Under the pieces are notes generated by a model that saw nothing but the letters and a program-made list of their open reading frames with translations, did no database searches and had not been told where the DNA came from. Shown one piece after another: positions 11,671 through 49,289 of a stretch of 64,000 nucleotides of DNA; position 1 is the first letter of the stretch; every line of letters begins with the position of its first letter. Position numbers and translations under genes: made by a program. The stretch covers positions 11,568,237 through 11,632,236 of the forward strand of contig NC_061082.1 of assembly GCF_021917145.1 (NCBI RefSeq), in the 5' to 3' direction. Source of the stretch: Hypomesus transpacificus. Its lineage: Eukaryota > Chordata > Actinopteri > Osmeriformes > Osmeridae.

Positions 11671-11813
11671 GTCGCATCACATGACAATTTAGCAACCAAC
11701 CAGTTAGCACAGTAGAGTTTCTGTATGTGTGAGCCACACAACCTCAGTTGGGAAGTAAATATAATAGCACTAGCTATAAGGCCAAAAGGAGCAATCCAGG
11801 AGAAAGAGACTAA

Positions 11814-15442: not shown

Positions 15443-15819
15443 TTATTTATTCCTCGAACATCTACACAGTATTTTATTGCGAATTTGAGTTAATGTCAGA
15501 CCATAAATTAGGGGGTTGAATAATGGAGGACCTATTAGAATTTGAACAGCCAATAAGTTTTGAAGGCTCTGTGGCAAATCGCTTGAGCCATAACGCATAT
15601 GCATAACATCAAATAGAGTAGCAATTGTAATGTTAAATAACGCAAATAAATGTGGCAAACAAGTACTCATGAACTTTCCTCTGTTTTCCAAGGACTTAAA
15701 ACATGATCTGATCAACTGCATGTAAGAGCAAACTATGAAAATGCCACGAAAAATATAAAACAATATTGTTACATATGCAACTACATTGGTTGGTGTGGAT
15801 GAAGTTACCCAACTGGTCG

Positions 15820-16026
15820 TGTAACCTGTGTGAATCGGTGAAACTCACTCCTCAGGTATGTAATGGGCCACCCGCGTCAACAAATAGCTAGCTTTTCTTT
15901 GGTGTAGTTGGTAGTGGTTGCGCTTGGAAGTCGAGAGGTGGCAGGTTCGACTCCCCGTGGGGGTGAACATTGGCCAGATACCTCTGACTGAGCTTGCAAT
16001 ACCACGTCCGTTACATACGCGTCACA
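15820..16026 (+). mobile_element. tRNA-derived SINE-like insert, copy 2
   Basis: Same insert as at 11464. Box A-like motif at 15900-15911, box B ggttcgactcc at 15944-15954, and gtcg duplications at 15816-15819 and 16027-16030. Confidence 0.65.
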
Positions 16027-16169
16027 GTCGCATCACATGACAATTTAGCAACCAACCAGTTAGCACAGTAGAGTTTCTGTATGTGTGAGCCACACAACCT
16101 CAGTTGGGAAGTAAATATAATAGCACTAGCTATAAGGCCAAAAGGAGCAATCCAGGAGAAAGAGACTAA

Positions 16170-16604
16170 GGTTGTGTCTACTACCGCGCACTTGTGCACT
16201 TCGAGCACTGACTTTCAGTGCTTAGGGCGCTTCACTTACAAAACCAGAATAATTCAGTGCACTGAAAGTACCAGGATGGCGCACTGCAAACGGTCCAAAA
16301 AAACAGCGTACAACGATGGACACTACTCGCCCTAAACGGGCGCCATCTTGGCTATGTAGTGGAAAAGGAGGAGCCCTTTCGGCAGCTTTTTCCACGTAAG
16401 TGGAGAAGCGCGTTCATTTTGGCAGGTTTTGCGGGTGTGGCGAGCAGATTTGCGTCTGTCACTTCCACCAAGTGTTTAACGTAGCAGTGTTCCATTTGAG
16501 ACAGCACTTATCAGCGACAGAGTGCACTCAATATGTAAGTGCACTGTTTTGCAGGGCACTGTATTGCAGTGTACTTCATAAATTGCGCGGTAGTAGACAC
16601 AGCC
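16170..16604. mobile_element. Harbinger-like MITE, copy 2
   Basis: Same MITE as at 11814, with TAA duplications at 16167-16169 and 16605-16607. Confidence 0.8.
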
Positions 16605-17727
16605 TAACTGTGCCACTCGCTGCTTAGTCATGACAGAGTGATATTGCAGTGGTGTACATATTGCTACAAACCTGTCATAGGCCATCACAGCTAGCAGACA
16701 AGTACTCAATGCAAAAAGAAGAATATATGACAAAAACCTGAAACAGACATGCTGCATAGGAGATGACCTGCAAACGAGACAGCAGATCCATCAGAAATTT
16801 GGGGTAGAATCCTGCAATACCAAAAAGTCCAATAATGCACAAATTACAAAGAAAGATATACATCGGCACATGAAAGATTCTGTTAGAAATTATAGTCAAG
16901 ATGACCGTAACATTAACTAGCACAATGATACAGTAACACAATAAAGTGAAAGAAAAGACAGGGACCCTGTAGTCTGTTATGTCTCCAAACCCAGACAGCG
17001 TGAATACTGTTACTACTGACATATTTTCAATTTTGCAAAAAGAATAAGACTAAATTAAGACCAAGCTATCTGCAAAGAAATGGAGAGTCCCTTTCATTTA
17101 TTATCCGTATTGAAGGTTTGATCTTAACAAAGTATGATACCCAGTTAATATTAAACCTTACATTACACACAAGATAAGCAAAGAGTCGTTGCACCATGTG
17201 AAGCCTGTGCTATGAAATTACATCTTTGGTTCTTTTCACCATGTTCTTCATTTATTCTCTCCCAGATGCATATTCAAATCTGAAAATGTGATTTGTCCAA
17301 TAAGGAAGTGGGAACAGTGTTGTGGATTGAGATTGTAGATCTAGTCAACACACTATGATGTTGGGAGTATGTGATGTAACATATCACAACACAATATTAT
17401 TTTACTGACTGCTTTGCTTTGTCTTTTTCTTAACAGACTGTAGATGCATGTGCTGGTGTTTTAAAATAAATGTTCCCCCAAACATTCTTGAGATTCGTAA
17501 GATAACTAAGACATAGAAAATTATGTAAATGTTGTTAAAAAGTATAATCAAATCGACATGTATTTTTATAGCCCTTTTTACAAGCAATGTCACAGAGGGC
17601 TTCACATACAGCCATAGAACTGCCCCATAACCAACCTCAACCCTCAAGGATATTCAAATATGTATGATATGTATAATTTACTACACCCAGCTCTTCTCTA
17701 TTTTCGGTACCTACTTCTACCGATGCA

Positions 17728-18714
17728 TTAGATACAATTTGCCTTTTTCAAACATGGATGCAGCATTCTGCTACGGATTTGAGTCAGGGTAAGACCATAA
17801 ATTAGGGGGTTAAACAGTGGAGGAATCATAACAATTTCTATGGAAAAGAAGTTCAGAAGACTTTGTTTTAAATCTACTGAGCCAAACCGCATAAACATAA
17901 GATCGAATAAAACTGCAATTATTACATTTAATAATGCCAGTAAATGTGGAACACAAGTCCTCACAAATTTTCCTCTGCTGTCTAAGGACTTCAAACATGA
18001 TTTGATCAACAGAACGTAAGTGTACACAATAAAAATGCCAAGAAAAATATAGAAAAATATACTTAAATATGCAACTACATTAGTTGGTGTGGTTGAAGTT
18101 ATCCAACTAGTCGCAGAGCATGAGAGTTTAACTATCAGCCAACCTGCACAGTACAGTTTCTCTATGTGTGAGCCACACAATTTAAGTCTGGAAATAAATA
18201 TAGCAATAGTACACATAAGACCTAAAGGAACAAGCCAGGAGAATGAGACTAACTGAATGACATGCTTCTTAGTCATTATAGAGTGATACTGCAATGGTCT
18301 ACATATTGCCACAGACCTGTCATAAGCCATCACTGTTAACAGACAAATGTCAATGCACACAGAAGAGTATATTACTACAGCTTGAAACAGACATCCTGAA
18401 TGAGAGATACTCTGATGATGAGACAGAATATCCAGCAGGAACTTGGGGTAGAATCCTGAAGTACCATAAAGTCCATTGATGCATAAATTACAAATAAAGA
18501 CGTACATAGGCTCATGGAGATTTCTATCCATGGTGATGGTAACAGTAAGGGCAACATTTACCATAATAATAACACAGTAAAACAGTAAAGTGAAACAGAA
18601 TACCGTTACTCTGTAGTCTAATAGCTCCTCGAACCCAGACAGAGATAGTTCTATTGCAGATGACACATTTTCCATTTCAAACGAAGACAAAAAAAATTGG
18701 ACCCTTTGCAACAT
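17728..18714 (-). CDS. Olfactory receptor, X type, unit 2 (intact)
   Basis: The translation is identical to the unit 1 X receptor over all 328 codons, including the DRS variant in TM3. The preferred start is the MENVSS Met at 18675. Identity at the protein level with an intact frame is what a very recent duplication gives; gene conversion is another possibility. Confidence 0.95.
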   Translation of the reverse strand: MLQRVQFFLSSFEMENVSSAIELSLSGFEELLDYRVTVFCFTLLFYCVIIMVNVALTVTITMDRNLHEPMYVFICNLCINGLYGTSGFYPKFLLDILSHHQSISHSGCLFQAVVIYSSVCIDICLLTVMAYDRSVAICRPLQYHSIMTKKHVIQLVSFSWLVPLGLMCTIAIFISRLKLCGSHIEKLYCAGWLIVKLSCSATSWITSTTPTNVVAYLSIFFYIFLGIFIVYTYVLLIKSCLKSLDSRGKFVRTCVPHLLALLNVIIAVLFDLMFMRFGSVDLKQSLLNFFSIEIVMIPPLFNPLIYGLTLTQIRSRMLHPCLKKANCI

Positions 18715-20175
18715 TTATGAATGTGTCATCTCTCTTGTTTGATAATCTATGTTTACTTAATAGTAATATTAAATAAGATATCCCTCATTACATTAAACTT
18801 AGCATTACATGTACAGTCTAAAAAAGATATAGATTATTTGGGCAGATATAAAATTAGTTATTATATACTGTTGATGTTAAGTCTGTGCTGTGTAGTTCCA
18901 GCCACTATTCTAACCCTTGCTGACTGTCAGTTTGGTCCCGATCTAATCGTATATACACATGAGCAGGTTGTTATGAGATTCAATGTGTCCAATCGGTGAT
19001 CTGACCTTACGTCATCTTGTAAATCCAGTGAGCTTTCATCTGACAGTAACTCTGAAGTTCATAATATTGCCAGATCATTGATGCAGACTAGAGACAGCAT
19101 AACAATATGGACACATTCATTCAGTGCTAATTGGTTCTATGATAAAGATTCAGATACACAATAACAACGGTTGCCCAAACCCACTCTTTTATTGTAAAAT
19201 TAAAATAAAGTACAAACATAGTGTATATACACTAAACTTCAAGCTCAAAATACAATAAGTACCACAAGAAAAATATGGTTATAAACAACTTTTTTTCTTT
19301 TCTGTGCATTAATAATAAAAGGAGATCAGGCAGATTTGTGTGAGGCTTTGCATCTGAAGTCTCAGGAATGTTTGGTAAACTAAATATTTGTGCAACAAAA
19401 CATGTTAACAATTCTATGAACAAGTTATCCTGCAACAAGTACACTTTAGTACACTATCACTAAGGTGAGTTGGCTCAGAACTGGGTCAGATTCTAACTGG
19501 ATCACTCATGTAAACAAACAGAGCTAGATCAATGACACACTTCCCATTCCTCCACATCTCCCTGAAACCACTAGTTTTATTTAAAATAAAAAGCACATCG
19601 TAACTGTTGTGGGGCTGGGCCAAGATAGAACTCAGAATTGCTTTTTTCTGAGCAAACCTTTGTCAACTGTCAACCCCAAAGTCAATGACACAGCTTAGCA
19701 AATTTGCAACCTCTAGAATAAAAATGTTTGTGTAAGGTTTAATTTCCCTATGACCCACCTTTGATGGTACCTCCCGTTTAATTATACTCAACACACTGTT
19801 ATTTATTCCTCGAACATCTACACAGTATTTTATTGCGAATTTGAGTTAATGTCAGACCATAAATTAGGGGGTTGAATAATGGAGGACCTATTAGAATTTG
19901 AACAGCCAATAAGTTTTGAAGGCTCTGTGGCAAATCGCTTGAGCCATAACGCATATGCATAACATCAAATAGAGTAGCAATTGTAATGTTAAATAACGCA
20001 AATAAATGTGGCAAACAAGTACTCATGAACTTTCCTCTGTTTTCCAAGGACTTAAAACATGATCTGATCAACTGCATGTAAGAGCAAACTATGAAAATGC
20101 CACGAAAAATATAAAACAATATTGTTACATATGCAACTACATTGGTTGGTGTGGATGAAGTTACCCAACTGGTCG

Positions 20176-20382
20176 TGTAACCTGTGTGAATCGGTGAAAC
20201 TCACTCCTCAGGTATGTAATGGGCCACCCGCGTCAACAAATAGCTAGCTTTTCTTTGGTGTAGTTGGTAGTGGTTGCGCTTGGAAGTCGAGAGGTGGCAG
20301 GTTCGACTCCCCGTGGGGGTGAACATTGGCCAGATACCTCTGACTGAGCTTGCAATACCACGTCCGTTACATACGCGTCACA
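20176..20382 (+). mobile_element. tRNA-derived SINE-like insert, copy 3
   Basis: Same insert as at 11464 and 15820, at the same site in the unit 3 Y pseudogene. Confidence 0.65.
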
Positions 20383-20525
20383 GTCGCATCACATGACAAT
20401 TTAGCAACCAACCAGTTAGCACAGTAGAGTTTCTGTATGTGTGAGCCACACAACCTCAGTTGGGAAGTAAATATAATAGCACTAGCTATAAGGCCAAAAG
20501 GAGCAATCCAGGAGAAAGAGACTAA

Positions 20526-20960
20526 GGTTGTGTCTACTACCGCGCACTTGTGCACTTCGAGCACTGACTTTCAGTGCTTAGGGCGCTTCACTTACAAAAC
20601 CAGAATAATTCAGTGCACTGAAAGTACCAGGATGGCGCACTGCAAACGGTCCAAAAAAACAGCGTACAACGATGGACACTACTCGCCCTAAACGGGCGCC
20701 ATCTTGGCTATGTAGTGGAAAAGGAGGAGCCCTTTCGGCAGCTTTTTCCACGTAAGTGGAGAAGCGCGTTCATTTTGGCAGGTTTTGCGGGTGTGGCGAG
20801 CAGATTTGCGTCTGTCACTTCCACCAAGTGTTTAACGTAGCAGTGTTCCATTTGAGACAGCACTTATCAGCGACAGAGTGCACTCAATATGTAAGTGCAC
20901 TGTTTTGCAGGGCACTGTATTGCAGTGTACTTCATAAATTGCGCGGTAGTAGACACAGCC
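20526..20960. mobile_element. Harbinger-like MITE, copy 3
   Basis: Same MITE as at 11814 and 16170, at the same TAA site. Confidence 0.8.
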
Positions 20961-22083
20961 TAACTGTGCCACTCGCTGCTTAGTCATGACAGAGTGATAT
21001 TGCAGTGGTGTACATATTGCTACAAACCTGTCATAGGCCATCACAGCTAGCAGACAAGTACTCAATGCAAAAAGAAGAATATATGACAAAAACCTGAAAC
21101 AGACATGCTGCATAGGAGATGACCTGCAAACGAGACAGCAGATCCATCAGAAATTTGGGGTAGAATCCTGCAATACCAAAAAGTCCAATAATGCACAAAT
21201 TACAAAGAAAGATATACATCGGCACATGAAAGATTCTGTTAGAAATTATAGTCAAGATGACCGTAACATTAACTAGCACAATGATACAGTAACACAATAA
21301 AGTGAAAGAAAAGACAGGGACCCTGTAGTCTGTTATGTCTCCAAACCCAGACAGCGTGAATACTGTTACTACTGACATATTTTCAATTTTGCAAAAAGAA
21401 TAAGACTAAATTAAGACCAAGCTATCTGCAAAGAAATGGAGAGTCCCTTTCATTTATTATCCGTATTGAAGGTTTGATCTTAACAAAGTATGATACCCAG
21501 TTAATATTAAACCTTACATTACACACAAGATAAGCAAAGAGTCGTTGCACCATGTGAAGCCTGTGCTATGAAATTACATCTTTGGTTCTTTTCACCATGT
21601 TCTTCATTTATTCTCTCCCAGATGCATATTCAAATCTGAAAATGTGATTTGTCCAATAAGGAAGTGGGAACAGTGTTGTGGATTGAGATTGTAGATCTAG
21701 TCAACACACTATGATGTTGGGAGTATGTGATGTAACATATCACAACACAATATTATTTTACTGACTGCTTTGCTTTGTCTTTTTCTTAACAGACTGTAGA
21801 TGCATGTGCTGGTGTTTTAAAATAAATGTTCCCCCAAACATTCTTGAGATTCGTAAGATAACTAAGACATAGAAAATTATGTAAATGTTGTTAAAAAGTA
21901 TAATCAAATCGACATGTATTTTTATAGCCCTTTTTACAAGCAATGTCACAGAGGGCTTCACATACAGCCATAGAACTGCCCCATAACCAACCTCAACCCT
22001 CAAGGATATTCAAATATGTATGATATGTATAATTTACTACACCCAGCTCTTCTCTATTTTCGGTACCTACTTCTACCGATGCA

Positions 22084-23070
22084 TTAGATACAATTTGCCT
22101 TTTTCAAACATGGATGCAGCATTCTGCTACGGATTTGAGTCAGGGTAAGACCATAAATTAGGGGGTTAAACAGTGGAGGAATCATAACAATTTCTATGGA
22201 AAAGAAGTTCAGAAGACTTTGTTTTAAATCTACTGAGCCAAACCGCATAAACATAAGATCGAATAAAACTGCAATTATTACATTTAATAATGCCAGTAAA
22301 TGTGGAACACAAGTCCTCACAAATTTTCCTCTGCTGTCTAAGGACTTCAAACATGATTTGATCAACAGAACGTAAGTGTACACAATAAAAATGCCAAGAA
22401 AAATATAGAAAAATATACTTAAATATGCAACTACATTAGTTGGTGTGGTTGAAGTTATCCAACTAGTCGCAGAGCATGAGAGTTTAACTATCAGCCAACC
22501 TGCACAGTACAGTTTCTCTATGTGTGAGCCACACAATTTAAGTCTGGAAATAAATATAGCAATAGTACACATAAGACCTAAAGGAACAAGCCAGGAGAAT
22601 GAGACTAACTGAATGACATGCTTCTTAGTCATTATAGAGTGATACTGCAATGGTCTACATATTGCCACAGACCTGTCATAAGCCATCACTGTTAACAGAC
22701 AAATGTCAATGCACACAGAAGAGTATATTACTACAGCTTGAAACAGACATCCTGAATGAGAGATACTCTGATGATGAGACAGAATATCCAGCAGGAACTT
22801 GGGGTAGAATCCTGAAGTACCATAAAGTCCATTGATGCATAAATTACAAATAAAGACGTACATAGGCTCATGGAGATTTCTATCCATGGTGATGGTAACA
22901 GTAAGGGCAACATTTACCATAATAATAACACAGTAAAACAGTAAAGTGAAACAGAATACCGTTACTCTGTAGTCTAATAGCTCCTCGAACCCAGACAGAG
23001 ATAGTTCTATTGCAGATGACACATTTTCCATTTCAAACAAAGACAAAAAAAATTGGACCCTTTGCAACAT
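22084..23070 (-). CDS. Olfactory receptor, X type, unit 3 (intact)
   Basis: Matches the other X receptors except for Leu instead of Ser at codon 11. That codon lies before the preferred start (MENVSS Met at 23031), so the mature receptors are probably identical. The DRS variant is present here too. Confidence 0.95.
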   Translation of the reverse strand: MLQRVQFFLSLFEMENVSSAIELSLSGFEELLDYRVTVFCFTLLFYCVIIMVNVALTVTITMDRNLHEPMYVFICNLCINGLYGTSGFYPKFLLDILSHHQSISHSGCLFQAVVIYSSVCIDICLLTVMAYDRSVAICRPLQYHSIMTKKHVIQLVSFSWLVPLGLMCTIAIFISRLKLCGSHIEKLYCAGWLIVKLSCSATSWITSTTPTNVVAYLSIFFYIFLGIFIVYTYVLLIKSCLKSLDSRGKFVRTCVPHLLALLNVIIAVLFDLMFMRFGSVDLKQSLLNFFSIEIVMIPPLFNPLIYGLTLTQIRSRMLHPCLKKANCI

Positions 23071-24146
23071 TTATGAATGTGTCATCTCTCTTGTTTGATA
23101 ATCTATGTTTACTTAATAGTAATATTAAATAAGATATCCCTCATTACATTAAACTTAGCATTACATGTACAGTCTAAAAAAGATATAGATTATTTGGGCA
23201 GATATAAAATTAGTTATTATATACTGTTGATGTTAAGTCTGTGCTGTGTAGTTCCAGCCACTATTCTAACCCTTGCTGACTGTCAGTTTGGTCCCGATCT
23301 AATCGTATATACACATGAGCAGGTTGTTATGAGATTCAATGTGTCCAATCGGTGATCTGACCTTACGTCATCTTGTAAATCCAGTGAGCTTTCATCTGAC
23401 AGTAACTCTGAAGTTCATAATATTGCCAGATCATTGATGCAGACTAGAGACAGCATAACAATATGGACACATTCATTCAGTGCTAATTGGTTCTATGATA
23501 AAGATTCAGATACACAATAACAACGGTTGCCCAAACCCACTCTTTTATTGTAAAATTAAAATAAAGTACAAACATAGTGTATATACACTAAACTTCAAGC
23601 TCAAAATACAATAAGTACCACAAGAAAAATATGGTTATAAACAACTTTTTTTCTTTTCTGTGCATTAATAATAAAAGGAGATCAGGCAGATTTGTGTGAG
23701 GCTTTGCATCTGAAGTCTCAGGAATGTTTGGTAAACTAAATATTTGTGCAACAAAACATGTTAACAATTCTATGAACAAGTTATCCTGCAACAAGTACAC
23801 TTTAGTACACTATCACTAAGGTGAGTTGGCTCAGAACTGGGTCAGATTCTAACTGGATCACTCATGTAAACAAACAGAGCTAGATCAATGACACACTTCC
23901 CATTCCTCCACATCTCCCTGAAACCACTAGTTTTATTTAAAATAAAAAGCACATCGTAACTGTTGTGGGGCTGGGCCAAGATAGAACTCAGAATTGCTTT
24001 TTTCTGAGCAAACCTTTGTCAACTGTCAACCCCAAAGTCAATGACACAGCTTAGCAAATTTGCAACCTCTAGAATAAAAATGTTTGTGTAAGGTTTAATT
24101 TCCCTATGACCCACCTTTGATGGTACCTCCCGTTTAATTATACTCA

Positions 24147-25735
24147 ACACACTGTTATTTATTCCTCGAACATCTACACAGTATTTTATTGCGAATTTGA
24201 GTTAATGTCAGACCATAAATTAGGGGGTTGAATAATGGAGGACCTATTAGAATTTGAACAGCCAATAAGTTTTGAAGGCTCTGTGGCAAATCGCTTGAGC
24301 CATAATGCATATGCATAACATCAAATAGAGTAGCAATTGTAATGTTAAATAACGCAAATAAATGTGGTAAACAAGTACTCATGAACTTTCCTCTGTTTTC
24401 CAAGCACTTAAAACATGATCTGATCAACTGCATGTTAGAGCAAACTATGAAAATGCCAAGAAAAATATAAAACAATATTGTTACATATGCAACTACATTG
24501 GTTGGTGTGGATGAAGTTACCCAACTGGTCGCATCACATGACAATTTAGCAACCAACCAGTTAGCACAGTAGAGTTTCTGTATGTGTGAGCCACACAACC
24601 TCAGTTGTGAAGTAAATATAATAGAACCAGCTATAAGGCCAAAAGGAGCAATCCAGGAGAAAGAGACTAACTGTGCCACTCGCTGCTTAGTCATGACAGA
24701 GTGATATTGCAGTGGTGTACATATTGCTACAAACCTGTCATAGGACATCACAGCTAGCAGACAAGTATCAATGCACAAAGAAGAATATATGACAAAAACC
24801 TGAAACAGACATGCTGCATAGGAGATGACCTGCAAACGAGACAGCAGATCCATCAAAAATTTGGGGTAGAATCCTGCAGTACCAAAAAGGCCATTAATGC
24901 ACAAATTACAAAGAAAGATATACATCGGCACATGAAAGATTCTGTTAAAAATAATTGTCAAGATGACCGTAACATTAACTAGCACAATGACACAGTAACA
25001 CAATAAAGTGACAGAAAAGACAGGGACCCTGTAGTCTGTTATGTCTCCAAACCCAGACAGCGTGAATACTGTTACTACTGACATATTTACCATTTTGCAA
25101 AAATAATAAGATTAAATTAAGAGCAAGCTATCTAAAATGAAAGGGAAAAGGTCCCTTTCATTCACTATCCTTATTGAAGGTTTGAGATCTTGATAATAAA
25201 GTATGATACCCAGTTAATATTAAACATAACCTTACATTTTACACAAGATAAGCAAAGAGTCGTTGGACCATGTTAAGCCTGTGCTATGAAATTACAACCG
25301 TGGATCTTTTCATTTATTCTCTCCTCAGATGCATATACAAATCTGAAAATGTGTCGTGTCTAATCAGGAAGTGGGAACAGTGTTGTGGATTGAGATTGTG
25401 GATCTAGTCAACACACTATGATGTGCTTTGCTGATATGACTGCTTTGCTTTGTCTGTTTCTCAACAGACTGTAGATGTATGTGCTGGTGTTTTAAAATAA
25501 ATGTTCCCCCAAACATTCTTTAACTTTGTAAGATAACTAAGTCATTTAAAATAATGTAAATGTTGTTCAAAAGTACAATCAAATCAACATTTATTTGCAT
25601 AGCCCTTTTTACAAGAAATGTCTCAGAGGGCTTCACATACGCCCATAGAACTGCCCCTCAACCAACAAAAAACCCTCAAGATCGATATAGCGATATTCAA
25701 ATATGTATGATATGTATGATTTACTAGATTTATGA
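24147..25735 (-). repeat. Partial OR tandem unit 4 (Y half only)
   Basis: Homology to units 1-3 covers the Y gene and about 640 bp beyond it, ending near 25735 before the X gene would start. It is visibly more diverged than units 1-3 are from each other, so it split off earlier. Confidence 0.85.
24155..25093 (-). CDS. Olfactory receptor, Y type, unit 4 (intact)
   Basis: This is an intact odorant receptor of 312 residues, a seven-transmembrane GPCR of the olfactory epithelium. It has an N-terminal sequon (N-M-S at 3-5), TM2 PMYIFLCNLCINGL at 57-70, the TM3 end MSYDRFVAICTPLQY at 116-130, loop cysteines in CGSHIQKLYC, and TM7 PPLFNPLIYGL. Translation may begin at codon 1 or codon 4; only the second Met (MSVV) has a counterpart in the three Y pseudogenes. 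It lacks the MITE, the tRNA-derived insert and the 1-bp insertion found in units 1-3, so it shows the ancestral state of the Y gene and is the only working Y in the window. Confidence 0.95.
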   Translation of the reverse strand: MVNMSVVTVFTLSGFGDITDYRVPVFSVTLLCYCVIVLVNVTVILTIIFNRIFHVPMYIFLCNLCINGLFGTAGFYPKFLMDLLSRLQVISYAACLFQVFVIYSSLCIDTCLLAVMSYDRFVAICTPLQYHSVMTKQRVAQLVSFSWIAPFGLIAGSIIFTSQLRLCGSHIQKLYCANWLVAKLSCDATSWVTSSTPTNVVAYVTILFYIFLGIFIVCSNMQLIRSCFKCLENRGKFMSTCLPHLFALFNITIATLFDVMHMHYGSSDLPQSLQNLLAVQILIGPPLFNPLIYGLTLTQIRNKILCRCSRNK

Positions 25736-34278: not shown

Positions 34279-37200
34279 CTAGTTTCCACCTAACTTAATG
34301 ATAATGCCTCTATGAACTATTATGGTACGTGGTTGCTCACTGGCTTTTCCAGGCTCATCATAAGTAAGTCTTAATACTGGTTTTATTTGTCTTTTGTCAG
34401 TTAGTCTGGGTCTAAGTACTCTATTGATCTTTGTTTTAGAGCTCAGCCTAACTTTTGGTGCCATGGGAGTTTTTCTTCTAGCATCCATGTCTGTTTCAGA
34501 ACCATAAGGGTCCGACTCTGTCATCGCACAACCTCGGTCTTCTCTGTCAGATTCTAGCTCTTCAGCAGACTGTACAGGACTTAGTTCTATAGCGTCTCCA
34601 TTCTCTGACCTCACCGAGACTCTGTTAGACACTTCTCTTTCTTTTAGTAAGTGTTCCACATACTCCCGGAATGGTCTACGGGGGTGGTCACACTCCTCAT
34701 CAGATGATTAATCTGTCATCTCTGGTACTTCTCTTTGTCTTACTATCTGTTGTCTTTGTCTGGTCGAACGTGTTCTTGGTCTCCCAGGGGTTTCTTCGTT
34801 TTCTCGATCTGCTGGGATCCTCACAGTTTGTCCAATAGGTAAGATGTGATCGCGATGGAGGGTCCTTACTCTGCTTGTGCCTCCTTCGGGTCTTATTCGG
34901 AATACCGGTAAATTCGGCAGCTTTTCTACAACTACATGGGGTATGGAACTCCATCGACTTTCACGCTTGCGTTTCCCTTTGAGCCCTAGATTCTTCAGAA
35001 GAACACGGTCACCTTCCTGTATGTTCTGAAAACTGACCTTCTGATCATAAGTTCTCTTGTTCCGCAAGTGAGTCTTGTCTGCAGTTTGACTAGGAAGTTG
35101 ATAGGCTTTTTGCAAGTCACGCTTCAGGCTTTCCACATACTGGAAATGTTTTTCTCCTCAGTTCCATCTTTGGAGTTCTTGAAGCACAAGTCTACAGGTA
35201 GTCTTGCTTCCCTACCAAACATTAAATAATAAGGGGAGTATCCCGTCGCATCACTTTTAGTGCTGTTATACGCATGCACTAATGAGGCTACTTGCTGACT
35301 CCAGGATCTCTTCTTTTCTTGGCCCAAAGTAGCCAGCATTGAGAGCAGAGTTCGGTTAAAACGTTCTGGCTGGGGATCCCCTTGGGGATGATACAGAGTC
35401 ATTTGTGATTTTCGTATTCCCAAGGTCGTCAGAAACTCTTGTGTCAGTCTGGACTCAAAGTCTCTTCCCTGATCAGAATGAATCCTAGCAGGTAAGCCAT
35501 AGTGAACAAAATATTTTTCCACAAGGATCTTTGCTACCGTTAGGGCTTTCTGGTTCTTTGCAGGGAAGGCCTGAACATATCTGGTATAGTGGTCGGTAAC
35601 GATTAACACATTACTAATGCCTTTGGAATCGGGTTCTATTGACAGGAAGTCAATACATACGAGATCCATTGGCCCCTTGCTTGTGATGTGGTGTAAGGGA
35701 GCAGCTTTCTTGGCAGGTGTTTTACGAGTAATGCACAGTCCACAGTTCCGCACATATTGCTCTGCCTCATGAGCCATCTTGGGCCAGTAGAATCTTGCTC
35801 TTAGGAGTTCGGTGACCCTTTCAACCCCTAAGTGGCCCATGTCATAATGAAGAGAGTGCAACACCAATTCTCTGAACTCAGAAGGCAGCACAAGCTGTAG
35901 TGTCTCCTCTGCATCTTTCTTGCTTGCTCTGAACAGCAGTCCATCTCTCATCAGAAGTTTGCTAACTTCCCTCCTTATCAGCCGTATTTCTAGATTTAAG
36001 TCTTTATTTTTAGGCCAGACTCCCCGTTTCATAGCCTCAATCACTGGTCTAATGACGACATCCATTTTCTGAACAGCCATCAAGTCAGCTTTTGACAGTT
36101 GCTCCAGCATGCTCAGGTGTAACTGAGACAGAAAGGCATACACCTCAGGGATACAGGCTGGCGAAGCTCCTAACTGTTCCACATTTCTGGGGGACATCTT
36201 TGTGGATTCATCCACTTGTACCTGCCGACATATGGACTTCACCACATTCTGAGACATGAGATCCCACTCGTCACCGTTTTCAGGTAAGTTGCAAGACAGC
36301 AAGTCAGCATCTATGTTTGTTTTACCAGGCCTATACTTTACGTCAAAATCATAGGTGGCCAGGGCTGCAAGCCAATGATGACCTGTCACATTGAGCTTGG
36401 CCGTGGTGAGTACGTACGTCAAAGGGTTATTGTCGGTGCATGCGGTGAACTTGGCCCCGTAGAGGTAGTCATGAAATTTATCAACTACGGCCCATTTCAA
36501 CGCCAGAAACTCTAATTGGTGTACAGGGTATCACTGTTCTGGAGAGCTCAACTTTCTGCTGGCGAATGCCACAGGTCTCAACCCTTCCGGATGTTCCTGA
36601 TAGAGTACGGCACCAAGCCCTTTGAAACTTGCATCTGTGTGTAAAACGTATGGCTTATTGGCATCAGCAAATGCCAGCACAGGTGCGTTGATCAAACACT
36701 GAATGATACGATTGAACGCGTCCGTGCAGGATGGATCCCATCGGTCATTGAATGGTTCTGAATCTTTAAAGTAAGTTTTGGTCTTCTCTGGGACAGGCTT
36801 TCTTCCATGCTGGGTGGGTGCATAGCCCTTTGACAGTTCTGTGAGGGGCCTCACTATCGCAGAGTAATTTGCTATGAAGCGTCGATAATACCCACAGAAA
36901 CCTAGAAAAGACCGCAGCGACTTGAGGTCCGTGGGCTTAGGCCACCTAGACACTGCTTCCAGTTTTTCAGGGTCAGTAGCAATGCCCTCCGCCGAAACTA
37001 TGTGACCTACATACTTGACCCTGGGTTGGCAAAATTGACACTTGTCAATGGAGAGTTTTAACCCTTTAAGTCTATCTAGCACTCGCAGGAGGCGCTCTTC
37101 ATGTTCTTCCAATGAACGTCCAAAGACTATGAGGTTGTCCAAATAAACTAACACCTGAAGGAGATTCATATCACCGACCGCTTTCTCCATAAGTCTCTGG

Positions 37201-37550
37201 AAGGTTGCAGGCGCTCCCGTTATGCCTTGGGGCATTCTTGAAAATTCAAAGAATCCAAGGGGACAAATGAAGGCTGTTTATGTGTATATGTTTACACATC
37301 ATCTATGCGAGGAGTTGTGTACTGGTCTGGAACCGTACGGCTATTAAGGGTCCTATAGTCAATGGACATTCTGATACTCCCGTTTTTCTTTCTGGCTATC
37401 ACAATGGGTGAGGCATACTGGCTATGTGACTCTTTGATAATACCAGCCTTTGACAGCTCCTGCAAGTGTTTACGAACATCGCCAATATCTGCTGGAGCTA
37501 GGCACCTTGATCGCTCTCTGAATGGCTTTGGGTCTGTCATCCTGATGTGA
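34279..37550 (-). mobile_element. Gypsy pol region (RT, RNase H, integrase)
   Basis: The pol part of the fossil Gypsy element. Recognisable pieces in coding order are an RT start (SQYASPIVIARKKNG), RT core (MPQGITGAPATFQRLME), RNase H (HTDASFKGLGAVLYQ), the integrase zinc-binding part and integrase core (IHSDQGRDFESRLTQEF), and a basic C-terminal tail. The order RT-RNase H-integrase is that of Ty3/Gypsy. It is broken. Confidence 0.88.
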
Positions 37551-37745
37551 TGCTCGACATCCTTAGCCAGGCCAACGTCCCATTCATGTAATGAGAATGC
37601 GCTTGCTCGCTCACATAATTTTTTACGAAGTCGCTCTTTTCATTGATGGGGAAAGGGCGAATCGCCAAACTGGATCAGTTGAGGATCTAACTCTGTTGGA
37701 AGAGTCATTGTCTCTGCTTCAAGCTTCCGAGTAGGAACGACTGGA

Positions 37746-40040
37746 TCAGCGTGACACAGCTGGCCTAAGACAGACTGTGTCTTTCAGGGACTCATTCTGG
37801 AGAAGCACAGTAAAGTGGTCCTTGTCAACTGATGTACTTGGCACGACCATAGGCTGCAGCAATATTCCAGATGGTAATGGGACGGAAGGTGAGGCCTCAA
37901 CCATCAACATGTTTTTATCCTGAGACTTTGTCCACTCGACTTCACAAATGGTGCAGCATCCACTCCCAGAGGGTAAGGTAAGTGAACCAGGGCCCATCCA
38001 CATCACACATCCCACTTCATCCTCTTCACTCTCAGTGGTAGGTTGTTCCGTGTGTACAATGGATTTCTTTGCTTCTATGCCAAGAGTCTGGGCAATGTTG
38101 CCAATGCCTGTTGTGTCTTTGCAGAGTCTGGACAGTCTCTGGAACAGGTTTGCATTTGTGCCTAGGATCACAGGGGTCTGCTCAGGGCTTTGAGGACTTG
38201 GGCAAATCAAAGCCAAGACGGAAAGCGTCTCCTTTGTGCCTGTGACCTTCTCTGGAAACTCCATCTCCACTACGACATATCCCAGGTAGGGGTAACTAGT
38301 GTTGCTTAACCCCCAAACCTGACACTGGCTGGATGGAGACATCAGGTAAGTGGCTCTTATACCAGGTCTCAAAGATAATTGTGACTTGTGAGCCACTATC
38401 CAGGAGTGCATCACTCTGTTGGCCATTTATCTTCACAGGAACGATCGAAGAGGGGCCAATCAGTCCCGGAGGAATGTCTTTTTTCTGGGTCATCACCTCA
38501 CTTTTTTTAGATGAGCACACTGTGGGATGACTCTCTTCTGCTTGAGAGGAAGATTCACTCTGTTTAGCTTTCTTTAGCGAGTGGATCAACTTCTGTATCA
38601 CTTTGGCCTGATTCTCTGCATTTTGGCATTTAGCAGAGTAATGGCCGTTTTCTCCACAGCGATAACAAAAGATCCCCTCACCTTTGTTAGACAGTTGCTT
38701 TCTATTATCACTATGGGCTTGTCTTGAAGGTTCTACTCTAAGAACTGTAGCAGGGTATTCTGAGGCTTTGGGGTTATGACCTGCCATTTGCTTTTGGAGA
38801 TTCTTCACTTGTTTTCCTAAGGCAGCTACTTCATTATCCCCTGAGGTAGGCCCTTTTGTGAGAGGTACGTGGTTATCTGCCACAACTTGGCTTTGCAAGG
38901 GTCTCATGGAAGTGAACATTGACTTGAGTTCTTGAATCTCTGATCGTAAACTGTCAATATCCTCCTGTCTATTTTCCCTATCTGACTGTGTATGAACGCG
39001 CAGGACGGACGTGTTCAACTTCATCCTTGAAGATTCATACTCCTTTTCATTTCGTATCTCTCTCAGCAATTCCAAAAATGAGGAGGGGATTTCCTTCCGT
39101 TCCCTGAGTTTGAGCTGAACCAGCATCATATCAGAGTGAACAGCACCTCTCAGCAGCTGCGCCACTCGAGCACAATTGGCACAGTCTGCAGGTAGACCTC
39201 CACGATCAACCACCTTTGTCAACGACAACTCTAATCTTCTAAGAAACAACTTCAGACAACTTCTCCTTTGGCTGCTGCTGTAGCAACCTAAAGGCAAAAT
39301 AGAGGTCTTCACCTGTCTCAGCAGACCCAAAAGCACTCTCAATGGCTTCTAAGCAATGAGCTTGACTAATCCCTGAATCAGCAGTCCGCACAGCCTTTAC
39401 AATAGCTAACGCAGGACCCTTCAGACTTTCCATGATACGCCGTTGTTTTTTCCTTAGCGGAACAATCGCTCTCCTCGAGCATCAGACGCGCATGCTCTAA
39501 CCAATGCTCTAAAGATTCTTCCCCAACAGGGGTCGGTAAAGTACCAGAGAATACTCTCAAACGACGGTAACTGCTGTTCTCCCCCGATGGTGTCTCCATC
39601 TTGGCCAACAAATCACCTACAGCACGAATAATGGACTCAGCCGAGCCGCCCGCTGGTGGATCTTCCAACAAACTCTTCAATGGGTTTGGAGAAACACTAC
39701 CGCCAGAACCAGAAATTTCAGAAGCGATAACTATCCTCCACTTCTCTGTTTGGTCAGCCGACACCAAAACAGAAGGAACTCTATCAGGGTCCACCCTCTA
39801 TTTGCTCTCACAGAGCACTGTAAGGCGATTAAGCTTTAAACTGAGTGTCCGTCCTACCACTCGCACTCGGCCTAAGGCTTTGATGGTTCCCATGGCTTCT
39901 TCAATCACTGCATTCTCCACTTCTTCTGGGATCAGCACCATTAAACTATGGTGTTCATCCAATTCTTCTCTTCTGCACCAGTCTTTGAGCTCTTTAACTA
40001 ATCCTACTGTGCTACTCTGAGACTGAGACTAATGTTAACT
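37746..40040 (-). mobile_element. Gypsy gag and protease region
   Basis: The gag part resembles the PNMA-like Gag of vertebrate Gypsy relatives (LRVFSGTLPTPVGEESLEHW and an N-terminal LKDWC.....LMVLIPEE-type stretch). It has a CCHC zinc knuckle (CYRCGENGHYSAKC) and an aspartic protease signature (LLDSGSQVTII). It is a fossil and broken. Confidence 0.82.
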
Positions 40041-40562: not shown

Positions 40563-43500
40563 TAGGGATGCACCGAATATTCGGCCACCGAAAATATTCG
40601 GCCGAAAATGTCCAAAAACATAATTTTCGGTTTCGGCCGAAGGAGTAAAAACGCCGAAAAAATTACACCGAACCTTTCTAGTTTTTATTTTTTTTAAAGC
40701 AACCAGTGTGGAATGAGCCTGGTGCACTTCTAAAAAAGACGGATTAAAAAAGAGCCGCAGGTAAGTTTGTTAACAACTAACTGACAATAAAGGGAGATGA
40801 AAAAGGGTCCGCATGCACTTGTAAACAACTAAATGACAATAAACGGAGATGAAAAAAGAGCCGAGCGCACCTGTTAACAACAAAATACCAAGTAGAGAGA
40901 AAACAATCTGCGCACACTTCATGCAGCAAACATGTCAGCAGTGTGGAAGCATTTTAGTGTCGGAAAACGGAGAAAATAAGGCCGTTTGCAGACAGTGTTC
41001 TGCTGAACTTTCTAGAGGGGGAACATCTGCGAAGACCTTCACCACATCAGGCTTAATTCATCACCTTAAATCCAAACACCCCAGACAACATGAGGAGTAC
41101 GAGAGAGACACCACCGCGGCAGCAACTAAAAGGAAAGTAGGCCTACCCAGCTCACACACTCCATCTGTGGCTGACGTTTTTGAAAAGGCAAAAAAGTTTG
41201 GCAGTGACAGTGCTAAAGCTAAGGGCATTACAACTAAAGTAATGGAATTCATTGCCTTGGATGACCAACCCTTCTCAGTTGTAGAGGACGTAGGGTTCCG
41301 TAGGCTAATGGGACATATTGAGCCCCGTTACACTGTCCCAAGTAGACGGCATTTCTCGGATGTATGCTTACCCGAAATGTATAACGTTGTGTCAACCCAC
41401 GTCCACGAGCTCTTGGCTACAGATATTGCAGCCTTTAGCTTCACTACAGATATATGGAGCTCGGATGTCAGTCCCACCAGCATGCTGAGTTTAACGGCAC
41501 AGTGGATAGACACTGAGTTCAACCTACAAAAGGTTGTTCTTCACTCGCAAGAGTTCAGAGGCTCCCATACAGCCGCAGCCATCTCAGATGCATTTGCCAA
41601 AATGTTTGACACTTGGCGTATCGACCCATCCAAAGTGCATGCGATAGTGAGTGACCAATGCAAGAAATATGACCAAAGCCATGGAAGACAGCAACCTTAA
41701 AGGCATAAGGTGCATGGCCCACACGCTTCAACTGGCCGTCAACGAGGGAGTGTTGAGTCAGCGCAGTATAGCGGATGTAATTGCGACCGGCAGGAAAATT
41801 GTGGGCCATTTCAAGCATTCTCCGCTTGCCTATGGGCGCCTACAAGCAATCCAAGAGCAATTGGGAATGCCACCGAAACGTCTCCAACAAGATGTGAGCA
41901 CAAGGTGGAACAGTACGTATTACATGCTGGAAAGCCTTTTTGCACAAAAGCGAGTCCTGGCTTCATACACTGCCGATACACATGATCTCCCCGCGACATT
42001 CAGCGCATACCAGTGGGTTTTAATAGAGAACATTCTCTCTCTCCTTGCCTCCTTTGAGCAGATAACGAAGGAGATAAGCTCATCGGGTGCATCTGTGGCA
42101 GACGTTATCCCCTTACTAGCAGCATTAAAGCGTCTTTTAGGCAAAGAGGCTGAAACAGACCACGGAGTGAGAACAACAAAAAGTGCGCTCTTAGATGCTG
42201 TGAACACTCGTTTTAGCAAGGCAGATTCCGAACCGCTGTACTGCATCACGACAGTACTTGTTCCAAGATATAAGGATCATTACTTGGATGTGGGGAAAAA
42301 GCAGCGCACAAGGGACATGATACAGGCTGAGTTGGATTTGCAAAAGCCGCTGTGTGATGTAGACGGTGGCATGACGCACAGCGCAGCAGAACGGGGAGAT
42401 GGCGTGGAGAAAAAAAGGGCACGCACTACAGATGATGAGCTGCGCAAACCCTTACTGTCTGACATGTTCGAAGAGATTCTCCAAGAGAGCAATCCAAATA
42501 CCAGTCAGAAGACAAGCTCAACAGCTCAACAACTGGATGCTTTTCTATCAGAAGTCCCCATCCCCAGGAGCAATAACCCTCTCGGATATTGGAGGGCCAA
42601 TCAAGGCCGCTTTCCCCACTTGGCACAGACGGCACGCAGGTTAGCTATTTAGGAAATTGAATTAAATATGTTATTCATAAAGTTCTTATTATGCTATATA
42701 TTTTGAACTATTATACTTTAGTGTGGAAAAATAGAAGGCATATAGCCTACCGGCATTCAAAAATTTAATTATTTCTTAGGCAGAAAAGAAACACATGCCG
42801 TCATCAATTAAAAAACTACAAAAAACTGATAGCCTACAATGTCGATGCTATGAGATAACTGTTTCGATTCTCCGTTCCCATCCTAGATACTTATCTGCTC
42901 CATGCACAAGCACCGATAGCGAGAGACTGTTTAGCGCTGCTTCTCACGTCATCGATGAGAAGAGGAACAGACTTTCATGTGACAAAGCAGAGAAGCTCCT
43001 TTTAATCAAGAAGAACCTGCCACTTTTCCTGAAATAGACTTATTTTAGTTTATTAAAGTTGCCTGTTATTTAAATACACTGTCAGAAATAGGGCACTGCC
43101 CCATTTGTGTTCAGCCCCCTCGGCCCCCACTTTTTTTTTTTTTTCAAGCAGTTGTTAATGCACTTTTTTTGTTGTGAGCATACAGAGTAAATGCAGTTAA
43201 TTTCTTGTTTAAGGCCGATGTTAGGGGGGCTCAAAGATGGCCAAATAAAAAGTATTTTGTTTTACTAATTTATTTAAGGGTAAATTGTTCTTAAATTAGG
43301 TCTTCTGGAATGTTAGAAAACGTTCAGTATTAAATAGATCGTTTGTATCAAATATGTAATTGATTTTGTTTTATTGAAAAGCAAGACAAAAAAGTTTATA
43401 AAGGACATTTAATTGTTTTATTCATGCAATGGTGAAAGATTAAAGCAAAATGAATGAAAAACAGCAAAAGCCACATTCGGTATTCGGTTTCGGCTTTCGG

Positions 43501-44334: not shown

Positions 44335-44745
44335 AATGAGTTGTGGTTATTTTACCACAGTGCAGAGACCTTTAATTCATGAATGTCTTTATGTTATTAG
44401 ACAGTATGTTTTTTTATCCAACCAATTGAATATCTCGGTGGTGATGTCTTCTCACCAACCACACAAGTTCCGTTCACTCATAGGCCTTGAATTCCCAGGA
44501 CAACTGAGGTGTTGATGTGATTACAGACTATAAACAGACTGTACATAGGAGTGAAGAACAGTAGAGGGAACTACGCAGCATACGCCAACATCTGACTGAA
44601 CTTGGTAATATCTAGTAGGCAGTAGATATGTTCAGCATAGGCCTTCCTGAACTTCTAAAATAACTTGTTTGCTTGGGGTGGGTGGTATATAGTCTAACTG
44701 TGTCTGATGAAAAAAATACAATTTGCATGCCATTTATTAATCACA
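44335..44745 (+). promoter_or_regulatory. Promoter region of OR Z2
   Basis: Homologous to the blocks before Z1 and Z3. TATA-like tataaac at 44529, exon-like acataggagtgaagaac, donor GTAATA at 44605. Unlike Z1 and Z3, I see no pyrimidine-rich CAG acceptor just before the ATG, so splicing of this leader is doubtful. Confidence 0.45.
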
Positions 44746-44821
44746 ATGAACAATGACTCCATTATCCTTGTGTTCACCCTCTCTGGGTTGGAAGGATTAA
44801 TGGTCTATAGAAGCGCACTTT

Positions 44822-47800
44822 GAGGCCCCTCCTTGAGTCACCACCTTAACGCGGTGGAGGGGTTTGCGTGTCCTAGTGATCCTGGAAGCTATGTTGTCGG
44901 GGGCTTCATGCCCCTGGTAGGGTCACCCAAGGCAAACAGGTTCCAGGTGAAAGACCAGACAAAGAGTGGCTCAAAAAACCAACCATGAAGAAATACAACA
45001 ATGGTTCTCAGTTGCCCCTGCCCGGAAGCGGGTCACCGGGGCCCCCCCCTGGAGCCAGGCCCGGGGGTGGGGCTCGATGGCGAGCGCCTGGTGGCCGGGC
45101 CTTTTCCCATGGGGCCCGGTCGGGCACAGCCCGAAGAGACAACGTGGGACCCTCTTCCAGTGGGCTCACCATCCGCAGGAGGGGTCATGGGGGTCGGGTG
45201 CAGTGTGAGACGGGCGGCGGCCGAAGGCGGGGGCCTTGGCGGTCCGATCCTCGGCTGCAAAAGTTAGCTTTAGGGACGTGGAACGTCACCTCGCTGGCGG
45301 GAAAGGAGCCTGAGCTGGTGCGCGAGGTAGAGAGTTTCCGGCTAGATATAGTCGGCCTCGCCTCGACGCACAGCGTGGGCTCCGGAACCAGTCTCCTTGA
45401 GAGGGGCTGGACTCTCTTCCACTCTGGAGTTGCCCTTGGTGAGAGGCGTCGAGCTGGGGTGGGAATACTGGTTTCCCCTCGGTTCGGCGCCTGTACATTG
45501 GGGTTCACCCCGGTGGACGAGAGGGTAGCCTCCCTCCGCCTTCGGGTGGGGGGACGGGTCCTCACTGTCGTTTGTGCTTATGCACCAAGCGGCAGCTCAG
45601 AGTACCCACCCTTTTTGGAGTCTCTGGGGGGGGTGCTGGAAAGCGCTCCTCCTGGGGATTCCCTCGTCCTCCTGGGGGACTTCAATGCTCATGTGGGCAA
45701 TGACAGTGAGACCTGGAGGGGCGTGATTGGGAGGAACGGCCCCCCCTATCTGAACCCGAGTGGTGTTTTGTTGTTGGACTTCTGTGCTAGACACGGTTTG
45801 TCCATAACGAACACCATGTTCAAGCATAAGGGTGTCCATATGTGCACCTGGCACCAGGACACCCGAGGTCTCAGTTCGATGATCGACTTTGTAGTCGTGT
45901 CATCGGACTTGGGGCCGCATGTCTTGGACACTCGGGTGAGGAGAGGGGCGGAGCTGTCAACTGATCACCACCTGGTGGTGAGTTGGCTTCGATGGTGGGG
46001 GAGGACGCCGGTCAGGCCTGGCAGGCCCAAACGTAATGTGAGGGTCTGCTGGGAACGTCTGGCGGAACCCTCTGTCAGAAGGAGCTTCAACTCCCACCTC
46101 CGGGAGAGCTTCGATCATGTCTCGGGGGGGGCCGGGGACATTGAGTCCGAATGGGCCATGTTCCGGGCCTCCATTGTTGAAGCGGCTGACCGGAGCTGCG
46201 GCCGCAGGGCGGTCGGTGCATGTCGCGGCGGTAACCCTCGGACCCGGTGGTGGACTCCGGAGGTGAGGGATGCCGTCAAGCTGAAGAAGGAGGCCTATCG
46301 GACTTTATTGGCTGGTAGGACTCCAGAGGCAGCTGATGTGTACCGGCAGGCCAAGCGGAACGCGGCTTTGGCGGTCGCGGAGGCAAAAACCCGGGCATGG
46401 GAGGAGTTCGGCGAGGCCATGGAGAATGACTTCCGAACGGCTTCAAAAAGGTTCTGGACCACCATCCGGCGGCTCAGGAGGGGGAAGCAGTGCTCTGTCA
46501 ACACTGTATACGGTGGGGATGGTGCGCTGCTGACCTCGACGGGGGACGTCCTGGATCGGTGGAAGGAATACTTCGAAGACCTCCTTAATTCCACCAACAC
46601 GCTTTCCGACGTGGAGGCAGAGTCTGGGGACATCGGGGGGGGCCCTTCTATCTCTGGGGCTGAGGTCGCCGAGGTGGTTGAAAAGCTCCGCGGTGGCAGG
46701 GCCCCTGGGGTGGATGAGGTCCGCCCGGAGTTCCTTAAGGCTCTGGATGTTGTAGGGCTGTCTTGGTTGACACGACTCTGCAACATCGCGTGGACATCGG
46801 GGACAGTGCCTCTGGACTGGCAGACCGGGGTGGTGGTTCCCCTCTTTAAAAAGGGGGACCGGAGGGTGTGCTCCAACTTTAGGGGGATCACACTCCTCAG
46901 CCTCCCTGGGAAAGTCTATTCAGGGGTCCTGGAGAGGAGGGTCCGTCGGATTGTCGAACCTCGGATTCAGGAGGAGCAATGTGGTTTTCGTCCTGGCCGT
47001 GGAACAGTGGACCAGCTTTATACCCTCCGCGGAGTCCTGGAGGGTACATGGGAGTTCGCCCAACCAGTCTACACATGTTTTGTGGATTTGGAAAAGGCGT
47101 TCGACCGTGTCCCTCGGGGGCTCATGTGGGGGGTGCTCCGAGAGTACGGGGTACCGGATTTCCTGATCGGGGCTGTCCGGTCCCTGTACGACCGGTGCCA
47201 GAGTTTGGTCCGCATTGCCGGTAGTAAGTCGAACTTGTTTCCGGTGAGGGTTGGACTCCGCCAGGGCTGCCCTATGTCACCGATTCTGTTCATTACCTAT
47301 ATGGACAGAATTTCTAGGCGCAGCCAGGGTGTTGAGGGGGTCCGGTTTGGTGACCTCAGGATCGGGTCGCTGCTTTTTGCGGATGATGTGGTCCTGTTGG
47401 CTTCATCGGGCCGTGACCTTCAGCTCTCACTGGAGCGGTTCGCAACCGAATGTGAAGCGGCTGGGATGCGAATCAGCACCTCCAAATCTGAGGCCATGGT
47501 AATCGACCGGAAAAGGGTGGAGTGCCATCTCCGGGTCGGGGAGGAGATCCTGAACCAAGCGGAGGAGTTCAAGTATCTCGGGGTCTTGTTCACGAGTGAG
47601 GGAAGAATGGAGCGCGAGGTCGACAGGCGGATCGGTGCGGCGTCCGCAGTGATGCGGGCTCTGCATCGGTCCGTCGTGGTGAAGAAGGAGCTGAGTCGAA
47701 AGGCGAAGCTCTCTATTTACCAGTCGATCTACGTTCCTACCCTCACCTATGGTCACGAACTATGGGTAGTGACCGAAAGAACGAGATCGCGAATACAAGC

Positions 47801-48187
47801 GGCCGAAATGAGCTTTCTCCGTAGGGTGTCCGGGCTCTCCCTTAGAGATAGGGTGAGAAGCTCGGTCATCCGGGAGGGGCTCAGAGTAGAACCGCTGCTC
47901 CTCCGCGTCGAGAGGAGCCAGCTGAGGTGGCTCGGGCATCTGATTAGGATGCCTCCTGGACGCCTCCCTGGTGAGGTGTTCCGGGCACGTCCCACTGGGA
48001 AGAGGCCCCGGGGAAGACCCAGGACACGCTGGAGGGACTATGTCTCTCGGCTGGCCTGGGAACGCCTTGGGGTCCCCCAGGAAGAGCTGGCGGAAGTGGC
48101 CGGGGGGAGGGAAGTCTGGGCCTCCCTGCTTAGGTCGCTGCCCCCGCGACCCGATCCCCGGACAAGCGGCAGATGACGACGACGACG
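44822..48187 (+). mobile_element. Full-length RTE-like LINE inserted in OR Z2
   Basis: A non-LTR retrotransposon of 3366 bp with a 163-bp GC-rich leader, one long ORF and almost no 3' UTR: the TGA stop runs straight into a (GAC/CGA)n tail of about 12 bp. It is flanked by a perfect 13-bp target duplication agaagcgcacttt (44809-44821 and 48188-48200). A single APE-RT ORF with a short simple-repeat tail is the RTE/RTEX plan; the clade call is by architecture. The intact ORF and target duplication mark it as very young. Confidence 0.9.
44985..48176 (+). CDS. LINE polyprotein: AP endonuclease and reverse transcriptase (1063 aa, intact)
   Basis: An intact ORF for target-primed retrotransposition. 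Residues 1-90 are a basic Gly/Pro/Arg-rich leader. About 95-330 is an apurinic endonuclease-like domain ([39 protein letters not shown]). About 590-850 is the reverse transcriptase ([28 protein letters not shown], catalytic FADDVVLL at about 797-804, FKYLGVLF). The C-terminal part has [10 protein letters not shown] and [10 protein letters not shown], common in RTE-like LINEs. There is no stop or frameshift. The GC-rich base use contrasts sharply with the AT-rich OR it sits in. Start taken at 44985, the first ATG of the frame. Confidence 0.93.
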
Positions 48188-49289
48188 AGAAGCGCACTTT
48201 TCTCTTTCACTTTACTGTGGTACTGTATGATAATTATGGTTAATGTTGTTCTCATTGTTACAATTATCATGGACAGGAACCTCCATGAGCCCATGTACAT
48301 CCTCCTGTGTAATCTGTGTATAAATGGGCTTTATGGGACTGCAGGATTCTACCCCAAGTTCCTGCTGGATTTACTGTCATACTCTCACGTCATCTCTTAT
48401 GCAGGATGTCTGGTTCAAAATTTTGTCATTTATTCATATGCTTGTAGGGATTTTTCTATTCTCTCAGTGATGGCATATGACAGGTATGTAGCAATATGTA
48501 GGCCACTGCAGTATCACTCTGTCATGACTAAGCAGCGTGTCACTCAGTTAGTCTCTTTCTCCTGGTTTGTTCCTTTGTTTCTTATTTCTATGGGTACAAT
48601 ATTTACTTCCAGACTTAGGTTGTGTGGCTCACACATAAAAAAACTCTACTGTGCCAATGGGTTGATTGCTCAGCTGTCATGTTCTCCGACCAGTTGGATT
48701 ACATCAACAACACCAAGTAATTCAACTGCTCTTCTAATAACAGTGACTTATTTCCTCCATGTTGTTTTCATAGTGTGTACCTATGTGTATCTGGTAAGAT
48801 CGTGTTTGAGGTCTTTAGTGGACAGGGGAAAGTTTATGCAGACCTGTTTGCCACATTTAATATCATTGTTCCACGTCACAGTTGCTTTGCTTTTTGATGT
48901 ATTGCACACACGACTCAATGGCACAAGTGATTTACCTCAAAACCTTAAGAATTTCTTGGCCATAGAGTTTCTTGTATTTCCTCCACTGCTTAACCCCCTG
49001 ATTTATGGTCTTCAGCTTTCAAAAATTAGAAAAAGAATACTGAGTTTATGTGTGCAAAAATAAATTGTGAAATATTTAAAAAGGTAACGGCTCAATTGAC
49101 TTTTTCGAGATTTCCCTACATACACATACATCTATTTAGGAATATTTACAACCGATTTATAAGAAGAGAATATTAAAGTTGATGCATTAAAAGTAATGGC
49201 CAGATGTACCTAACCAAGTAAGTGTGCATATGGCCTCTATGTTTAGTTTTTTAAATATATTTGATGGTGATTAAATCAGGTTATTTGAG

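Follow-up and report, generated by a model that had tools for sequence, protein, structure and literature searches.

Structure of the split olfactory receptor locus

The DNA analysed here (the window, the whole 64-kb stretch under study) contains an olfactory receptor (OR) gene whose coding exon is interrupted, in its N-terminal part, by a LINE in sense orientation (Table 1). The original prediction had described a perfect 13-bp target duplication around a 3366-bp LINE with an uninterrupted ORF of 1063 residues, and an OR readable in frame on both sides, and all of these features were recovered. The 13-mer AGAAGCGCACTTT is identical at 13 of 13 bp on the two sides, the element between both copies spans 3366 bp, and its only ORF runs from the ATG at 44985 to the TGA at 48174-48176 (1063 codons) with no stop on the way. 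Joining 44746-44821 to 48201-49063 restores an open frame of 939 bp, or 312 codons and a stop, with no internal stop. In its present state the native OR frame comprises 25 codons and ends at a TGA made by the junction (44821-44823). An upstream ATG opens a further frame (MKKIQFACHLLIT, 44698-44745) that is continuous, in the same phase, with the native OR start.

Table 1. Features of the interrupted OR gene and of the inserted LINE (window coordinates)
Feature	Positions	Strand	Remark
Pre-ATG sequence	44715..44745	+	27-bp block of four relatives absent, no AG acceptor left
OR coding sequence, 5' part	44746..44821	+	Native ATG; 25 codons plus one further base; contains left duplication; aligns with OR paralogs
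Left target site duplication	44809..44821	+	AGAAGCGCACTTT
Full-length RTE-like LINE	44822..48187	+	3366 bp
LINE ORF	44985..48176	+	1063 aa; Exo_endo_phos domains at residues 98-331, RVT_1 at 622-867
LINE 3' end	48173..48187	+	ATG overlapping the stop (ATGA), then ACG repeats; ATG in the OR frame
Right target site duplication	48188..48200	+	AGAAGCGCACTTT
OR coding sequence, 3' part	48201..49063	+	Open to stop
LINE-started OR frame	48173..49063	+	296 aa: MTTTT and OR codons 22-312; Pfam 7tm_4 match

The joined OR aligns end to end with the OR genes of the window, and its DNA is 84% identical to the OR at 29707 and 83% identical to the OR at 49743. It matches the Pfam family 7tm_4 at 6e-34 and contains the MAYDRYVAIC motif. 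An N-terminal glycosylation sequon, a feature that helps OR trafficking, is located at position 3 of the joined frame; a sequon falls within the first 11 residues of all 25 intact ORs compared, and an LSG motif was found in 24 of the 25.

Domain organization and clade assignment of the LINE

The LINE ORF matches Pfam RVT_1 (2.2e-32), Exo_endo_phos_2 (1.9e-7), and Exo_endo_phos (4.1e-7), and thus combines a reverse transcriptase (RT) and an APE-like endonuclease in one ORF, as in APE-type non-LTR retrotransposons; target duplications of variable sequence were likewise found. The best sequence match to the ORF among solved structures was LINE-1 ORF2p (residues 537-872), followed by R2 proteins. 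The L1 plan has a poly(A) tail, and the window LINE differs from LINE-1 in its single ORF and trinucleotide tail; the match of the L1 endonuclease to it was not significant. In this weak domain alignment (4.9 bits), Ser 127 of the endonuclease stands opposite L1 Glu 43, which we take to be a catalytic residue. Since the LASTHSV stretch is identical in all 24 intact copies, the serine is a family trait rather than damage in the window copy, and a family with this residue at the L1 Glu 43 position has nonetheless undergone recent amplification.

Elements of the RTE clade are described as encoding endonuclease/phosphatase and RT domains in a single ORF of ~1000 aa, which lies between a short 5' UTR and a tiny simple-repeat 3' UTR, and as having short target duplications with no fixed target site (PMC2887409). 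The window LINE shares with them the single ORF (1063 aa), the short 5' UTR (163 bp, compared to 276 bp in the Heliconius RTE element; PMC2887409), the simple-repeat 3' end just past the stop (11 bp of ACG repeats), and the variable target duplications. The element fits the RTE clade by these described features and is referred to here as RTE-like. It also resembles the teleost RTE element Rex3 in overall plan and in having the stop codon beside the repeat tail (PMC6274825). In contrast to the Rex3 tail signature, given as GCG(GAA)2 followed by GAT-type tetranucleotide repeats, the tail of the window LINE is ATGACGACGACGACG, of the form ATG(ACG)n, and identity with Rex3 was rejected on this account (PMC6274825).

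When a portion of the RT was used to scan viral contigs, no relative was found. Among reference genomes scanned with the last 325 residues, one relative was found, a stub (171 bp, 87%) at the contig end of an Epulopiscium MAG (L001:4024-4194), which is probably fish host DNA carried into the bin and was of insufficient length for further comparison. The window itself holds another LINE RT fragment at 601-1206 (-), with 22% identity to the LINE studied here.

Amplification of the LINE family and age of the insertion

The LINE was searched against its own genome (a 437-Mb assembly of 376 contigs), where 40 places, the window included, were scored out of 315 first-look candidates, and the counts given here are among the matches scored rather than genome totals. 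The 5' end of the LINE was matched at all 39 other scored places, beginning at window-equivalent positions 44817-44826, and 32 of these 39 fetched places matched over the full span in a single block; the seven loci with no single-block span (L017, L019, L022, L027, L029, L035, and L043) were left out. Because 39 other places match the 5' end and 32 of them the full span, the structure of the LINE is not due to chance. The element is therefore full-length, as had been proposed, and a 5'-truncated element was rejected, since the 5' end is common to the family copies.

The search for near-identical copies that the original prediction had suggested as a check identified 29 of the 32 full-span copies at 4 to 24 substitutions from the window copy, with a median pairwise difference among these 29 young copies of 9 substitutions. 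The other three (L030, L042, and L046), at 48, 73, and 83 substitutions, were left out of the young set. Exact end repeats of 6-13 bp, the shortest of which are indistinguishable from chance, were observed in 27 of the 32 other full-span copies and were missing from five. The 1063-aa ORF is kept in 24 of the 33 full-span copies (window included), whereas in eight it is interrupted by an early stop or shifted in frame, and the start of the remaining copy was missed by the script. Singletons in the 24 intact ORFs comprise 46 nonsynonymous and 27 synonymous changes, where neutrality would predict a ratio of 2.49 to 1; the difference hints at some constraint before insertion.

Near-identical repeats can be misassembled, and the LINE might in principle have been misplaced into the OR by the assembly. 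Such an artefact is extremely unlikely, given the perfect target duplication at the site, the complete OR on both sides, and the fact that duplications of a different sequence flank most of the other copies.

The window copy carries two private substitutions, at LINE positions 768 and 926, both of them amino-acid changing, which corresponds to a divergence of 2/3366 or 0.06% (Poisson 95% range, 0.007 to 0.21%). Fish substitution rates are a few per billion per year, and at such rates the insertion would be some hundreds of thousands of years old, or younger. The openness of the ORF alone sets a looser age limit, ~0.6-1% divergence: in a simulation of neutral decay, a LINE ORF that had diverged by 0.6-1% was still open with a probability of ~4-7%, the value varying with the indel rate, and this probability fell at higher divergence. 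An ancient fixed insertion was rejected because of the two private substitutions. The shared 5' end, the two private substitutions, and the 24 intact ORFs among 33 copies together give strong support to the view that the window LINE is full-length and very young, as first proposed, and comes from a recently amplified RTE-like family.

With so low an age and 29 of the 32 full-span copies nearly identical to the window copy, there is a real prospect, slightly short of even, that the insertion is polymorphic and that other individuals or the other haplotype carry an empty, readable OR. If the insertion segregates, it would provide a natural single-receptor knockout. Against this, the 48 scored matches of the OR 3' part in the assembly include no empty-site copy, the window itself being the exact match and its two neighbours following at 85% and 84%. 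The upstream change described below may also impair an empty allele.

Loss of an acceptor-like site upstream of the receptor ATG

The claim that the OR carries no other lesion applies to its coding sequence but does not extend to the region before the ATG. Shortly 5' of the ATG, a polypyrimidine tract with CAG (CTTTTCCTTACAG) occurs in both nearest paralogs (29707 and 49743), and the split OR has no counterpart of this acceptor-like site, owing to a 27-bp gap together with substitutions. The 27-bp block is present in 49743, 29707, 25093, and the pseudogene 21387 (four of the four aligned relatives) and absent only from the split OR under two MAFFT settings, so that the gap looks like a derived deletion. 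In these alignments the gap covers the bases immediately 5' of the acceptor as well as the beginning of the tract, and TTACAG lies opposite changed bases that contain no AG. The acceptor AG itself was thus lost in the alignment by substitution beside the gap, whose placement is uncertain; whatever the placement, the split OR has no AG within 50 nt before its ATG.

OR genes often have an upstream untranslated exon (PMC3308321, PMC4122780). When the donor of a common 5' exon was sought in the split gene, 29707, and 49743, the donor-like sites were not in matching sequence. Acceptor-like sites were scored with a weight matrix in 25 intact ORs and in 4000 random stretches of AT-rich window sequence. 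Of these ORs, four lie in the window and the other 21 come from 23 fetched loci, two of which (L065 and L081) were excluded as having no clear ATG-started ORF. A score of at least 4 within 60 nt of the ATG was reached by 18 of the 25 intact ORs compared to 10.5% of the random set (Mann-Whitney p 1.9e-9, a value that overstates independence because the ORs are tandemly arranged relatives and several of them share an acceptor). The split OR scored -7.95, below all 25. It was also below all 25 within 120 nt, where 18 of the 25 ORs and 17.3% of the random set scored at least 4, and below 24 of the 25 within 200 nt, where the corresponding values were 20 of 25 and 26.1%.

Loss of the site need not kill a gene, since seven of the 25 intact ORs (60 nt) or five (200 nt) score below 4. 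The clear OR pseudogene 21387, in turn, keeps an acceptor-like site, so that such a site alone is no marker of life or death. The OR pseudogene at 2310-3233 (-), which has internal stops, lies elsewhere in the window and is without a good upstream acceptor-like site.

The upstream change is probably older than the LINE, because the OR branch (dS ~0.35, from pairwise values) is far longer than the age of the LINE (0.06%), and impairment of the gene may likewise predate the LINE. A stronger version of this order, in which loss of the splice acceptor before the ATG had already made the OR a silent pseudogene, is less likely than not. It would account for a block missing only here among the aligned relatives, for the lack of a counterpart to the paralogs' acceptor AG, and for the lowest acceptor score within 60 nt among 26 genes (the 25 intact ORs and the split OR), and the branch lengths agree with it. 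However, the joined OR has no stop or frameshift, and some intact ORs are themselves without a clear acceptor. The loss of the AG by substitution beside a gap of uncertain placement further weakens the case. The ratio of nonsynonymous to synonymous changes on the OR branch (59:56) does not differ significantly from that in the two paralogs (40:28; Fisher p 0.36), nor do the polarised counts (25:14 vs 19:13, p 0.81), and the split OR is therefore without sign of long decay or relaxed constraint.

A start codon in the LINE tail in frame with the receptor

The window LINE ends in GGCAG ATG ACG ACG ACG ACG, immediately followed by the target duplication. The tail ATG overlaps the LINE stop TGA in all 33 full-span copies. 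The repeats behind it are of the ACG type in most of the 32 other copies, with ACGG in L042 and L046 and mainly ATG in L028; since the unit is three bases long, repeat number leaves the frame unchanged in most copies. At this locus the tail ATG (48173), which was absent from the original prediction, is in the OR frame and opens 891 bp, or 296 aa starting with MTTTT.

A receptor with a short N-terminus might still be made if transcripts of the LINE 3' end started translation at this ATG, for which a leader spliced into the LINE end, a downstream promoter, or stop-start re-initiation could be proposed as routes. The predicted protein keeps OR codons 22-312 and matches 7tm_4 at 6e-34, whereas the corresponding frame in the other 32 full-span copies opens at most 61 aa. 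Moreover, an acceptor-like site at 48133 would leave 48173 as the first ATG, there being no ATG between the two. We nevertheless consider such a product improbable. Initiation at the tail ATG is doubtful, as the acceptor at 48133 scores only 0.16 and 50 ATGs lie between 44746 and 48172, the native start included. About one-third of sense insertions would be expected to fall in frame by chance. The frame is also without the N-terminal sequon of all 25 intact ORs and without the LSG motif of its relatives. A structure prediction for the LINE-started OR reached a mean pLDDT of 43 and was set aside. A more far-reaching proposal, that the LINE tail acts as a portable start codon that re-started an acceptor-less OR as an expressed receptor with a LINE-derived N-terminus, is very unlikely.

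The tail ATG also bears on annotation. Under a published rule for mining fish ORs, an ORF is taken as functional if it exceeds 750 bp, matches ORs, and clusters with them (PMC8661438). The LINE-started frame of 891 bp is above this length, and such a rule would probably class it as a functional gene. The tail ATG is thus an annotation trap by which gene counts could list a probably broken OR as whole.

Fate of the receptor gene

The reading we favour is that a very recent insertion of a full-length RTE-like LINE split the OR exon and that the OR is now non-functional, which we regard as very probable. A recently active copy of the family would have entered the exon in sense orientation by target-primed reverse transcription, a route suggested by the target duplication, the family 5' end, and the repeat tail. 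The acceptor-like site before the OR ATG would, in the more likely order of events, have been lost earlier than the LINE arrived. We infer the loss of OR function from the native start, which would yield only 25 codons, from the poor start in the LINE tail, and from the lost acceptor-like site; any product of the tail ATG would be handicapped by its position behind 50 other ATGs and by the missing sequon and LSG motif.

OR pseudogenes that arise from mobile-element insertion are a general class, and the split OR resembles them in that a coding exon is interrupted by a mobile element. It is unlike the usual members in that the insert is too young for either ORF to have been damaged and the LINE tail supplies a new in-frame start. 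The split OR is most likely a fresh pseudogene of this known kind, and what is worth reporting about the event is the missing acceptor-like site together with the tail ATG in the OR frame. The locus offers a dated snapshot of gene loss in which the host gene can still be read, as can the insert. Transposable elements in fish OR clusters are already in print, as a figure of such elements among five OR genes is mentioned for the Asian arowana (PMC7586111). Among the titles and abstract openings of the literature searched, no case was found of an OR with a LINE or other retrotransposon insertion or of start codons supplied by transposable elements.

Other features of the window

Three tandem 4356-bp units at approximately 11297-24542 each contain one intact OR together with one OR pseudogene. 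Any two of these units differ at 2 to 16 positions, and the triplet reflects either a recent triplication or an assembly effect. ORFs at 35124-39348 (-) resemble those of a Ty3-type LTR retrotransposon, as which we presumptively label them; the gag-like ORF among them has a Pfam PNMA match of 4.7e-12 and weak matches to a zinc knuckle and an aspartyl protease. Two further regions, which we take to be hAT-like transposases, are located at 40843-42652 (+), with a BED zinc finger match at 1.4e-7, and at 4960-7128 (-).
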